From IMG/VR virus record IMGVR_UViG_3300017764_000156, positions 1 through 20,314 of that record: DNA of 20,314 bases. One strand, given 5' to 3'. A program made the position numbers and the translations under genes. This document shows positions 13,357 through 18,318 of the stretch, in pieces. The notes under the pieces were generated by a model. That model ran no database searches. It was not told the origin of the DNA and saw nothing but the letters and a program-made list of their open reading frames with translations. Position 1 is the stretch's first letter. Each line of letters opens with the position of its first letter. Origin of the DNA: a virus.

Positions 13357-13592
13357 ACGTAACACTAGGCAATGGGCGAATAAACGAAGAAATAAACGAC
13401 GCAACACGCATCAGCGATATGCGAGACGAGCGTAACAGCTTACTAGCACAATCAGATTGGACACAAAGCGCCGACAGTCCACTAAGCGACAGCAAAAAAC
13501 AAGAATGGGCTAATTATCGGCAAGCATTAAGAGACTTCCCAGCTTCATGGACACCAGCAGACACCGCTAACTTGCCTGATCAGCCGTCATGA
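13353..13592 (+). CDS. tail fibre assembly chaperone-like protein
   Basis: A 79-residue protein with RDERNSLLAQSDWTQSADSPLS and WANYRQALRDFP (residues about 24-45 and 52-63). 'R..RD.LLA.SDWTQ..D.PL....K..WA.YRQALRD.P' is the signature of the phage tail assembly chaperone family (APC type), which helps fold or attach receptor-binding proteins. Its location directly after the candidate receptor-binding gene, with a 4-base overlap, fits. It overlaps the endolysin start by 4 bases. Confidence 0.75.
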   Translation: MNVTLGNGRINEEINDATRISDMRDERNSLLAQSDWTQSADSPLSDSKKQEWANYRQALRDFPASWTPADTANLPDQPS

Positions 13593-14323
13593 GTAGCATA
13601 ATATCCCGTGCAGGCTGGGGCAGTCGAGGACCTAAAAGCCGATTCACTAACCTCAACAAGAAACGTGTTGTAGGCATTGCCATACATCATTCAGGCGTAA
13701 AAAACGGTCCTAAAGGGGTTACAGCAGTCAAAGCATTTGAACGGCATCACATGGACGCAAACGGGTGGAACGCCATAGCATACAACTGGCTAATAGACGA
13801 AGAAGGCGTCATCTATGAAGGTCGAGGCGCTGGTGTCGTATCAGCCGCTACACGCCCATACAACAGTAGAACAGAAAGTATTTGCTACACCGGAGACGGC
13901 ACAAAACCAATACCAGCAAAAACTTTAGTTTCATTTGTATGGCTAGTAGCAGACATACAGAAACGATACAGCAACAAACTATGGTTAAAAGGGCATCAAG
14001 AACTAGCCAGTACTAGTTGCCCTGAAAAATACATGATGGAATGGGTAAGGCAACACCGAACAGGCAACAAAATTGTACAACCTACAAGCAAGCCAGCGCC
14101 CAAGAAGCCAGCAAAAACAACACGGCTAGTAAAGCAGGGCAGTAGGGGCGCTCATGTTAAAATGATGCAAACACAACTAAACAAAAAAGGCTTTAAGCTG
14201 GAAGTTGACGGCATAGCCGGTCCGCAAACTATAGGCGCATTAAAGAAATACCAATTGAAAGCTGGGCTTGTAGTTGACGGGTTATGCGGCAAAAACACAT
14301 GGAGGACATTATATGCAGATTGA
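13589..14323 (+). CDS. endolysin: N-acetylmuramoyl-L-alanine amidase with peptidoglycan-binding domain
   Basis: A 244-residue two-domain enzyme. The N-terminal PGRP/amidase_2 domain (about 1-160) has the zinc ligands His33/34 (AIHHSG), His136 (KGHQEL) and Cys144 (TSCPEKY), with NAIAYNWLI as the conserved middle. A short Lys/Pro/Ala linker (about 164-178) follows. The C-terminal domain (about 180-242) is a peptidoglycan_binding_1 repeat (VKQGSRGAHVKMMQTQLNKK, then LEVDGIAGPQTIGALKKYQ). It cuts the bond between muramic acid and the stem peptide during lysis. There is no signal peptide, so release depends on a holin, and a holin gene follows directly. Confidence 0.93.
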   Translation: MSSIISRAGWGSRGPKSRFTNLNKKRVVGIAIHHSGVKNGPKGVTAVKAFERHHMDANGWNAIAYNWLIDEEGVIYEGRGAGVVSAATRPYNSRTESICYTGDGTKPIPAKTLVSFVWLVADIQKRYSNKLWLKGHQELASTSCPEKYMMEWVRQHRTGNKIVQPTSKPAPKKPAKTTRLVKQGSRGAHVKMMQTQLNKKGFKLEVDGIAGPQTIGALKKYQLKAGLVVDGLCGKNTWRTLYAD

Positions 14324-14570
14324 CGTAAAAGATTTACTAGAAAGAGTTATTAGTACGTTTGTACAAGCGACAGCAGGCATGATAGGCGTAGACCAAATCG
14401 TAGATATGGGCGTTAGCGAATGGAAACTAATCTTAGGCGCTGGCGGCGCCGCTGTACTCAGCATGCTTAAAGGCTATTTTGCGGCACGCTTTACAGGCAA
14501 TGACACCTGCTCACTAGTACGGGACAAAACGACTTCTTTATCGGCTACTATCAGCGGTGACGAGGGCTAA
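14313..14570 (+). CDS. holin
   Basis: An 85-residue protein starting at ATG 14313, chosen because GGAGG (14301-14305) lies 7 bases upstream. The N-terminal part is amphipathic (QIDVKDLLERVISTFVQATAGMIG), and the main hydrophobic segment is at about 33-55 (WKLILGAGGAAVLSMLKGYFAARF). A C-terminal polar end follows with NDTCSLV. This 'GAAVLSxLKG...ARF.G....SLV' pattern is typical of holins of actinophages (r1t-like group). It overlaps the endolysin gene by 11 bases, completing an endolysin-holin pair that lets the amidase reach the cell wall at a set time. Confidence 0.85.
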   Translation: MQIDVKDLLERVISTFVQATAGMIGVDQIVDMGVSEWKLILGAGGAAVLSMLKGYFAARFTGNDTCSLVRDKTTSLSATISGDEG

Positions 14571-15963
14571 ACCCTTTTACATACTGGCACGCTGTGGCTT
14601 AGTTGCTACATTGTTGCTTGCATGGGTGGCACCTGCGCAAGCCAACACAGCAACCTGCAACACAAACGAAAACGGGTTACTAGTCTGCAACATAGACGTA
14701 ACTGACGGCGACGGCGTAGACCTAACCTTTACAATACAGATTGAAACAACCGTAACGTTCACGACACACACAAGCCTTACCTGCCCAACACATGACACAA
14801 ACAGCGTGTACGCTGACCCATACATATATATTTTTGATGATCAAGACAACGTTATAGCAGAGGACGACGACAGCGCCCCTTTTAATGACGGCGTAGACAA
14901 CTTTTGCTGGGACAGCTATATACAGGCAACGCTACAAGCAGGCGACTACCGACTAAACGCAAACGTATACGAAAATTATTACGGTGTCTACACACTTGAC
15001 GTTGAAGGCGTCGCATTACAGGAAGAACAACCGGAACCAGAGCCAACACCAGAGCCAACACCTACACCTGAACCAACACCTACACCTGAACCAACACCTG
15101 AACCGCCGGAGCCTACACCAACACCTGTACCGCCAACGCCAATGCCAACACCAGTGCCGCCAACGCCAACACCAATACCACCTACGCCACAACCTACGCC
15201 GTTACCGCCTGCCCCTACACCAGTGCCGACACCAGAACCGCCGCTAGTATTTAATCCTTTCCCAGATGATTTTGTGCCACCTGATCCTGAACTAACACCT
15301 GATCTAGTCGTCGATACAATTGCTGACTTAACGCCGGAACCATTGCCAGAAATTGTTCAGCTACCAGACGACGAATATGTAGACGATAACGACGTGCAAC
15401 GCTTTGACAGACTAGACGACCTAATAGAAATAGACATAAACCCAACAGAACCCATAGAAGAAATAGAAGAAACGACATTAGAAGAAACCATAGAAGAAGA
15501 CTATGACATTTTAGAAATGTTTACAGAAGAAGAACTAGAAGAACTACAACAAGAAGAAATAGAAATACTAGAAGAACTACTAGACGACCCAGACATAGAC
15601 GCAGAAATAGTAGAAGACCTAGAAGAACTCTTTGATGAAGAAGAAATAACAGCAGAAGAAATAATAGAACTAACAGAAAACCAAGACTACGAAGAATTAC
15701 CAACAGAAGCACGCCAACAAATCGTACAAGCAGTACAAGAAGCACCAGTAGAAATAAGGCAAACGTTTGAAGCGCAAGTAAACGTGTTTAGTAGTGACGA
15801 TTACGCTAATTATGTCGCTGTAGGATCACGCATTGACACAGAAGACCGTAAAACAGTTATAGCAGTTACCGCCGCCGCTACCGCCATATCTAGTAGTATA
15901 AGAACAACGGCTACCGTATCATCTGGACCAGCAACACCAACAGGGAGAATGCGACGTGGTTAA
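14557..15963 (+). CDS. exported protein with PPC-like domain, Pro-rich stalk and acidic region
   Basis: A 468-residue protein starting at GTG 14557. Residues 1-29 form a clear signal peptide (two basic residues, hydrophobic core, AQA-N cut site). Residues about 50-152 look like a bacterial pre-peptidase C-terminal (PPC) beta domain (YIYIFDDQDNVIAEDDDS, then DSYIQATLQAGDYRL), with possible disulfides among C34, C44, C76 and C117. Residues 157-230 are a Pro/Glu/Thr stalk (PEPTPTP repeats). Residues 290-385 are extremely acidic and probably helical. The end (408-448) is VNVFSSDDYANYVAVGSR plus a moderately hydrophobic RKTVIAVTAAATAIS, then a basic tail. The plan fits a protein that crosses the cell wall. 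Role unknown: envelope fusion or spanin-like lysis, superinfection block, or virion surface. Confidence 0.75.
   Translation: MTRAKPFYILARCGLVATLLLAWVAPAQANTATCNTNENGLLVCNIDVTDGDGVDLTFTIQIETTVTFTTHTSLTCPTHDTNSVYADPYIYIFDDQDNVIAEDDDSAPFNDGVDNFCWDSYIQATLQAGDYRLNANVYENYYGVYTLDVEGVALQEEQPEPEPTPEPTPTPEPTPTPEPTPEPPEPTPTPVPPTPMPTPVPPTPTPIPPTPQPTPLPPAPTPVPTPEPPLVFNPFPDDFVPPDPELTPDLVVDTIADLTPEPLPEIVQLPDDEYVDDNDVQRFDRLDDLIEIDINPTEPIEEIEETTLEETIEEDYDILEMFTEEELEELQQEEIEILEELLDDPDIDAEIVEDLEELFDEEEITAEEIIELTENQDYEELPTEARQQIVQAVQEAPVEIRQTFEAQVNVFSSDDYANYVAVGSRIDTEDRKTVIAVTAAATAISSSIRTTATVSSGPATPTGRMRRG
15055..15102 (+). repeat. tandem 18-base repeat in the Pro-rich stalk
   Basis: CCAACACCTACACCTGAA occurs at 15055-15072 and 15073-15090, with a partial third copy at 15091-15102. 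It encodes PTPTPE units and can expand or shrink by slippage. Confidence 0.75.
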
Positions 15964-17157: not shown

Positions 17158-17522
17158 ACCAACCTACATTATGGGGCGAGATAGGCGGCAAAACCGGCAA
17201 CGATCACCCACAAACAAGTTACGAAGCTGGGCGCAAAGTACGAGCAGGCACACAAAAACACCAAATACTACGCCTACTGTATGCACACAGTGACGGCATG
17301 ACAGCCTATGAGATGCGGCGCAGAATATTAAATGGAGCTGGTGAACCGATTAGCACTAACCAGATAGCAACACGGCTACTAGAATTACGAGAAGATAGCA
17401 TGGTCGAATTTGCACGCGACAACATAACAGGGCTGATACTTGAGCGGGAAACAACACCGAACAACACGGGACAAGTACAGAAGCTAACACGCTGGGGTTA
17501 TCAAAATGCTATCGGTGGGTAG
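17154..17522 (+). CDS. winged-helix DNA-binding protein
   Basis: A 122-residue protein. After a short start (LWGEIGGKTGNDHPQTSYEAGRKV) comes a typical winged helix-turn-helix: helix 1 TQKHQILRLLYAHSDG (33-48), helix 2 TAYEMRRRIL (50-59), recognition helix ISTNQIATRLLELRE (66-80) and a wing ending near FARDNITG. The 'SxEAA..v...T.K.QIL..L...G.MTa.Em' layout is common in actinophage early regions and resembles host MarR-type regulators. Its 17-base overlap with the C5 methyltransferase gene suggests joint expression; it might control that gene or the early promoter. Confidence 0.75.
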   Translation: MNQPTLWGEIGGKTGNDHPQTSYEAGRKVRAGTQKHQILRLLYAHSDGMTAYEMRRRILNGAGEPISTNQIATRLLELREDSMVEFARDNITGLILERETTPNNTGQVQKLTRWGYQNAIGG

Positions 17523-18318
17523 TTTATGCACCGGTTACGGTGGTTTAGAAATGGGTTTACAAGCCGTATACGGTGATATTGGTCTACGTTTTGTGTCTGA
17601 TATTGACGATGACGCAAGCACATTGTTAGCGCATCACCACCCGAACGTACTTAATTTAGGTGATTTAACAGTTGTTGATTGGGCAGACATTGAACCGGTA
17701 GACGTGTTATGCGCTGGCTATCCATGCCAACCATTTAGTACAGCAGGCAAAAGAAAGGGTTTAGAAGATGAAAGAGCCATATTTGAATACATTGCGGACG
17801 CCATTAGCGTTTTACGACCCAGAAACGTGTTGCTGGAGAATGTCGCAGGACACCTTACTCTTGGCGGCACCGCCGTTATTGCAACGCTTACCAAATTGGG
17901 GTATGGCGCAAAATGGGGCATTGTTCGAGCTTCCGACACCGGAGCACCTCACCAACGCAAAAGATTATTTATTTGGGCTTATGTTGGCGACACCAAGAAG
18001 CGCCATGCAGGAAACACGCAACAACAACTTATGGCTACGCCCATTAAATCAACCGCAGAATTTAGAAAACCAATTAGCACGTTTGCACGCTGGGCTAGCA
18101 TTGTCGGAAGACAAGCACCAGAATACGCAACAAATGACAATACAGTAAGTCCAATGTTCGTTGAATGGCTTATGGGTTTACCTGAAGGCTACGTCACTGA
18201 TATAGGTCTATCAAGAAGCGCTCAACTGAAGATATTAGGTAACGGCGTTGTACCACAACAAGCGGCGTTAGCGTTGCACTTACTGGCAGAAGGGGGCTAC
18301 TATGCCAAGACAGCTTAA
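17506..18318 (+). CDS. C5 cytosine DNA methyltransferase
   Basis: A compact 270-residue C5-methyltransferase. Motif I is SLCTGYGGLEMGL (6-18), motif IV GYPCQPFS with catalytic Cys74 (71-78), motif VI ENV (111-113), motif VIII HQRKRLF (149-155), then a short target recognition region (about 156-215) and motifs IX-X (RSAQLKILGNGVVPQQA, 237-253). It transfers methyl groups from AdoMet to C5 of cytosine, probably to protect against restriction. It is short for the family because the recognition region is reduced. Codons 88-215 overlap a second open frame (17768-18148). No adjacent nuclease gene. It overlaps the genes before and after by 17 bases. Confidence 0.95.
   Translation: MLSVGSLCTGYGGLEMGLQAVYGDIGLRFVSDIDDDASTLLAHHHPNVLNLGDLTVVDWADIEPVDVLCAGYPCQPFSTAGKRKGLEDERAIFEYIADAISVLRPRNVLLENVAGHLTLGGTAVIATLTKLGYGAKWGIVRASDTGAPHQRKRLFIWAYVGDTKKRHAGNTQQQLMATPIKSTAEFRKPISTFARWASIVGRQAPEYATNDNTVSPMFVEWLMGLPEGYVTDIGLSRSAQLKILGNGVVPQQAALALHLLAEGGYYAKTA
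17768..18148 (+). CDS. overlapping +1-frame gene inside the C5 methyltransferase
   Basis: A 126-codon frame lying entirely within the methyltransferase gene, shifted by +1. Reasons to think it real: AGAAAGGG (17752-17759) lies 9 bases before its ATG, the same ribosome binding site used by three other early genes. The protein has the layout of a stand-alone phage family often found near C5-methyltransferases: FYDPETCCWRMSQDTL (15-30), LPNWGMAQNGALFELPTPE (41-59), LATPRSA (73-79), and LENQLARL (99-106). Trp/Pro/Met-rich segments like these are not what random out-of-frame reading usually gives. Family resemblance is from memory and not verified. Against it: part of the ribosome binding site is forced by the conserved GKRKG of the methyltransferase, and open frames of this length arise by chance in the window. 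Confidence 0.5.
   Translation: MKEPYLNTLRTPLAFYDPETCCWRMSQDTLLLAAPPLLQRLPNWGMAQNGALFELPTPEHLTNAKDYLFGLMLATPRSAMQETRNNNLWLRPLNQPQNLENQLARLHAGLALSEDKHQNTQQMTIQ

Follow-up and report, generated by a model that had tools for sequence, protein, structure and literature searches.

An open reading frame (ORF) of 126 codons, read in the +1 frame wholly inside a C5-cytosine methyltransferase (MTase) gene, is almost certainly a real and conserved overlapping coding gene, as far as sequence evolution can tell. We consider it probable that the two frames together encode a two-subunit C5-MTase, whose overprinted specificity subunit (beta) would act in trans with the catalytic chain (alpha). The window, i.e. 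the whole stretch of DNA that was analysed, is a virus record of 20,314 bases; its features relevant here are the following.

17506..18318, plus strand: C5-cytosine MTase, catalytic chain (alpha), frame 0, 270 aa (Pfam PF00145, TIGR00675, M.HhaI alignment)
17752..17759, plus strand: ribosome-binding-site-like AGAAAGGG, 8 bases before the +1 ATG (sequence; SD-like motif at homologous sites)
17768..18148, plus strand: overprinted +1 ORF, 126 aa, proposed small/specificity subunit (beta) (ORF list, PHROG_1008, stop, start and synonymous-site tests)
17768..17983, plus strand: N-terminal part of beta (DPxTxxWRMSQ, LPNWGMxxNG, ELPTPE), sharing its DNA with MTase motifs VI-VIII (synonymous constraint)
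17984..18085, plus strand: C-terminal module of beta, LATPRSAMQETRNNNLWLRPLNQPQNLENQLARL, 34 residues, recurring in distant MTases, with +1 as the selected frame (codon-position mismatch)
18145..18192, plus strand: motif IX-like VSPMFVEWLMGLPEGY, in the MTase frame (in the +1 frame in layouts B and C) (motif patterns, M.HhaI alignment)
18226..18264, plus strand: motif X LKILGNGVVPQQA, in the MTase frame (motif patterns, M.HhaI alignment)

The catalytic chain

Alpha (17506-18318) matches Pfam PF00145 (E=4e-37) and is also matched by TIGR00675; the PCQ at 17722 and the ENV at 17836 place it among the C5-MTases. Motifs I-VIII, IX and X are all in frame 0, motif VI (ENV) occupying 17836-17844 and motif VIII (GAPHQRKRLF) 17941-17970. 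Residues 51-162 of alpha align with residues 58-174 of M.HhaI; a second domain, which covers motif IX, aligns residues 214-249 with 274-307 of HhaI at -2.3 bits, so that the identity of motif IX is weakly backed by this alignment. In M.HhaI the target-recognition domain sits within the interval between motifs VIII and IX. This interval is of about 100 residues in M.HhaI versus about 52 in alpha, i.e. about half of it is missing. Judged by this alignment, alpha is without a standard target-recognition domain between VIII and IX and does not correspond to a canonical single-chain C5-MTase.

Two more MTase-like ORFs are present in the window, at 724-1500 and 1497-2135 (motifs TSPPYDDMR and DPPYGM), which seems to bring the DNA methyltransferases of this phage contig to three.

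The +1 product, its homologues and three layouts

The first-pass annotation had proposed that a 126-codon +1 frame is nested in the MTase across motifs VI and VIII, and its coordinates and frame are right: the ORF starts with the ATG at 17768, its stop ends at 18148, and it lies wholly within the MTase ORF, of which it covers codons 88-214, i.e. motifs VI and VIII, ending just before motif IX. The peptide segments quoted at that stage (LPNWGMAQNG, ELPTPE, LATPRSA and others) are present in the product and kept in its homologues, and the correspondence drawn between ADADR in one frame and LPTPTA in the other is correct. All the computational checks proposed beforehand for a genuine overprinted gene came out in its favour, beginning with the search for homologues of the product, which were found in PHROG_1008 (profile match P0001, E=4e-5; relatives down to 1e-40) and among IMG/VR relatives. 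No Pfam or NCBIfam model matches the +1 product.

Related loci distribute motifs IX and X between the two frames in three ways, the classes being assigned by motif patterns and a hand-made list. In layout A (the window, L001-L005, L007-L011 and many L04x-L07x) frame 0 carries motifs I-VIII, IX and X, and the +1 frame the LPTP part only. In layout B (phiBT1 L035, L006, L078 and L082) frame 0 stops after motif VIII, and the +1 frame carries LPTP, IX and X. Layout C, found in many viral loci and in those from bacteria, has I-VIII and X in frame 0, and in the +1 frame LPTP together with motif IX (LNPxFVEWLMGxPxGWT). PHROG_1008, a family of C-half DNA methyltransferases, matches the +1 products of all three layouts and extends over the +1 product as well as the C-terminus of the MTase.

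Avoidance of stops in the +1 frame

Synonymous-codon shuffles of the MTase gene (n=20,000), which keep the protein and the codon usage, give 7.1 stops expected in the +1 frame of the window, where there are none; not one of the 20,000 shuffles reached 0 (P<5e-5), and the +2 control frame has 7 stops for 7.9 expected. The frame also stays open in relatives: over 107 related loci—non-identical, and gathered largely using the MTase frame as query—the +1 frame holds 2 stops versus 489 expected, and the +2 control 989 versus 1027, a count that tests ORF length, since the +1 ORF itself set the far end of the stretch. In 53 genome loci with the ENV located, there are 0 stops in +1 versus 174 expected, and 449 in +2 versus 453. 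The dcm gene of E. coli, a conventional C5-MTase, shows no +1 depletion (3 stops versus 4.9 expected).

With fixed bins around ENV, the ratio of +1 stops in the layout A-like loci is 1.38, 1.04 and 1.43 upstream, and 0.12, 0, 0 and 0 from 25 codons before ENV onward. As the +1 ATG of the window lies 23 codons before ENV, the onset of stop avoidance coincides with the start codon.

Start signals of the +1 frame

For the +1 ATG to exist, the Asp codon of the MTase DER motif has to be GAT; among loci that have this motif, GAT and GAC occur there 32:10, versus 312:442 elsewhere in the same genes (p=1.7e-5). Of the 51 loci with the ATG, 47 have an SD-like motif upstream, compared with 32 of the 55 lacking the ATG (p=5e-5), and ATG plus SD within the allowed interval are found at 20 of the 39 layout A-like loci for 1.6 expected. 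Thus the start codon and the ribosome-binding site of the +1 frame are conserved in relatives, through both the GAT bias and the excess of ATG with SD.

This mechanism of starting is not general, since the layout C loci, from bacterial genomes, show no excess over chance of an SD+ATG start for beta (3 versus 2.0 expected). About 19 layout C loci carry (A/G/T)TGAATGAG, in which a +1 ATG comes four bases after the MTase start; it is possible, on the sequence, that this tandem start serves both frames. Tandem starts of the form ATGAATGAG, or with TTG or GTG first, are seen at the MTase N-terminus in L025, L027, L038, L133, L143 and others, and the two frames, starting four bases apart, possibly share one ribosome-binding site there. 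In the viral loci L083, L084 and L105 no +1 ATG, GTG or TTG occurs from 45 codons before to 5 after ENV.

Synonymous constraint and the frame under selection

Thirty-two layout A-like genes were aligned by codon, and mismatch was scored at four-fold sites where the amino acid is shared. Synonymous variation in the MTase frame drops across the overlap, as the first reading had predicted for a real gene: mismatch is 0.69 before the overlap, 0.50 over motifs VI-VIII and 0.70 after; by column it is 0.51 inside versus 0.69 outside (p=4e-10), and for the N-terminal part of beta (17768-17983) the Mann-Whitney test gives p=2e-9. The segment of lowest mismatch, sought without preset boundaries, runs in the window from SVLRPRN to KKRHAG, inside the +1 ORF. 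Over motifs VI-VIII both frames are constrained, the MTase frame keeping its normal pattern with less third-position change; downstream the roles reverse, and in the module +1 is the selected frame. Similarity over motif VI alone was discounted as evidence, because it is partly due to the conservation of frame 0.

The reversal is read from the modules themselves. In the family of the window's module (13 loci), mismatch at the three +1 codon positions is 0.36/0.25/0.61; for all modules, taken by rising identity, it is 0.39/0.32/0.58, 0.27/0.20/0.54 and 0.10/0.07/0.35, the latter for modules 80-100% identical. This is the pattern that a protein encoded in +1 leaves. Modules are common to MTases with cores less than 45% identical (57 pairs), and that of the window is shared across layouts A, B and C. 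L006, of layout B, has a module 56% identical to the window's in a +1 ORF running on into motifs IX-X, and its MTase frame is interrupted by stops in the module region, so that frame-0 conservation cannot explain this module. L012, L014 and L015 have near-identical MTases differing mainly in the module region, and the number of modules varies from 0 to 6. Searches of open-licence papers on LPTP and VEWLMG returned nothing relevant.

In Gordonia phage Hans (L125, 1036-1917) a LAGLIDADG ORF interrupts the same MTase gene immediately ahead of the LPTP ORF, and additional LPTP modules switch back and forth between two frames.

Distribution and annotation

Genome contigs were scanned with an alignment of layout C beta, giving at least 80 loci; the record titles of those listed span more than 15 phyla and include one archaeal MAG, the host assignment being tentative since several of these loci come from MAGs. 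Among the matches listed, each of the 80 beta ORFs overlaps an MTase core, and the offset is exactly +1 every time. The belief, voiced in the first-pass annotation, that such proteins usually stand alone near C5-MTases is contradicted by this count, and also by the annotated phage 'DNA methylase' matches examined, which turn out to be the MTase gene read in +1. The suggestion that the LPTP family arose by overprinting fits the evidence as one possible direction of origin.

Gene callers usually report only one of the two frames. In most phage records the MTase frame alone is annotated; in Streptomyces phage Vash two genes called 'DNA methylase' overlap; and on the P. aeruginosa plasmid NZ_CP124656 (L123, 1458-2144) only the +1 product is annotated, as the hypothetical protein WP_232060884, the overlapping MTase frame not being called.

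Discussion

We propose that alpha provides the catalytic domain (motifs I-VIII and X) and motif IX, without a target-recognition domain, and that beta would be made from a further ribosome start, at 17768, served by a binding site of its own. The N-terminal part of beta, overprinted on motifs VI-VIII, probably docks onto alpha; the LPTP module, placed where single-chain enzymes have their recognition domain, might contact DNA and supply its recognition in trans. Modules are exchanged by recombination, their number varying from 0 to 6, so that specificity could change while the catalytic part stays; the phage might use the enzyme to evade host restriction. That beta is a subunit of the MTase is likely; that it is the target-recognition subunit is suggested by its position, its modularity and the gap in alpha. 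The argument leans on these three because structure prediction was uninformative: AlphaFold2 models of beta alone, from the window and from a layout C locus, are poor (pLDDT 62 and 58), and a Foldseek search with the low-confidence beta model gave no match. Poor models may be expected if the chain folds on a partner.

Searched against PDB sequences, the A6 profile gives only a weak match, from its positions 6-25 to PDB 7pvp (E=4e-4), which relates the DPxTxxW hairpin to SAKe6BC; this likeness is possibly convergent.

It could be argued that the +1 product, though real and overprinted, is no subunit of the MTase, but for instance an anti-restriction protein, an inhibitor or a regulator linked to the gene. 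Its low-confidence fold without structural match would agree with this, as would the lack of any Pfam or NCBIfam model. However, in layouts B and C the +1 chain carries motif IX, and in B also X, so that it is needed to complete an MTase; PHROG_1008 spans the +1 product together with the MTase C-terminus; and the linkage is kept in 80 of 80 genome loci among the matches listed. We therefore regard a protein foreign to the enzyme as improbable.

Ribosomal frameshifting from the MTase frame could also read the +1 frame, making a fused alternative C-terminus and no separate subunit. The many layout C loci without an SD-ATG start (3 versus 2.0 expected), and the few viral loci without a start codon near the site (e.g. 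L083, L084, L105), speak for such a mechanism; the tandem start of about 19 layout C loci, which could serve both frames, speaks against it. Besides, the window and its layout A relatives open the +1 frame with a conserved ATG and binding site, stop avoidance begins exactly at this ATG, and, as the N-terminal part of beta is read from the DNA of motifs VI-VIII, a shift placed before it would strip these motifs from the fused chain. Frameshifting is thus quite unlikely overall, and for the window we reject it on account of the conserved +1 start.

The view that conserved MTase motifs and codon usage by themselves produce the open frame and its apparent homology, with nothing translated, draws on the part of the similarity over motif VI that follows from frame-0 conservation. 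The way the sequences have evolved already refutes this reading, and we give it very little credit: the stop counts are conditioned on the MTase protein sequence, synonymous sites are constrained across the overlap, the modules vary in the manner of +1 codons, L006 keeps its module where the MTase frame has stops, and E. coli dcm has no +1 depletion. A constraint on DNA or RNA (a structure, a recombination site) hardly deserves belief, even if the recurrent modules look like recombination cassettes, since the constraint tracks +1 codon positions and stops are absent from +1 but normal in +2.

Returning to a two-subunit enzyme, the known precedents are M.EcoHK31I and M.AquI. In M.EcoHK31I (YGGCCR) two polypeptides form one C5-MTase, and the beta ORF reportedly lies within alpha, in a different frame. 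The window resembles it in having its second ORF wholly inside the large-chain gene, in +1 and selected for coding; it differs in that its motif IX is in alpha (frame 0) and its beta consists of the N-terminal part and one LPTP module only. The published split, with motifs I-VIII and X on the larger polypeptide and IX on the smaller (PMC3404938), is exactly layout C, and is seen in layout C relatives, not in the window. The predicted recognition domain of M.EcoHK31I was moreover described in the large subunit (PMC3404938), which is the opposite of the assignment to beta proposed here. M.AquI is split between motifs VIII and IX, its small chain carrying IX-X (PMC3404938), as in layout B (phiBT1 L035, L006); unlike it, alpha of the window keeps IX and X, and beta lies wholly inside alpha. 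In the open-licence literature we found no earlier report of layout A or of a clade-wide overlap. PHROG_1008 'DNA methyltransferase' is a family label, and the library is silent on members overprinted on another MTase chain.

The multispecific C5-MTases of Bacillus phages (SPR, phi3T, H2) carry serial recognition domains between motifs VIII and IX. The LPTP modules are likewise short exchangeable units between VIII and IX, exchanged between distant MTases; but those of SPR, phi3T and H2 belong to one chain and one frame, whereas here they are mostly on an overlapping +1 chain. Mycobacterium phage ShiLan (match H3) has an MTase of the same enzyme group as that of the window. The methylase of this cluster F1 phage is described with an out-of-frame HNH insertion (PMC11855218), an inserted homing endonuclease as opposed to the overprinted subunit here; in the passages of PMC11855218 covered here, a +1 overlap is not mentioned.

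On balance we incline, by a little, to a wider interpretation: these loci would form a widespread branch of C5-MTases that encodes catalytic and modular, recombining recognition chains on one DNA in two frames, motifs IX and X having moved between frames (A, B, C), and in which specificity would evolve by shuffling of LPTP modules in the overprinted frame, the catalytic frame there merely staying open. In bacteria, it is rare for a long same-strand overlap between two functional proteins to be established; the present one is kept in related genes of phages and bacteria across many phyla, its frames divide selection between them, and it offers a directly testable case of overprinting. If the interpretation is true, LPTP proteins listed as 'hypothetical' and phage methylases listed as 'inactive' are in many cases the halves of one enzyme, which would explain why annotators call one frame or the other, and the modules make up a natural library of swappable recognition units.

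Elsewhere in the window, an ORF of 468 aa (14557-15963) with PEPTPTPEPT-type repeats and an acidic tail lies just downstream of a lysin-like ORF (13589-14323).
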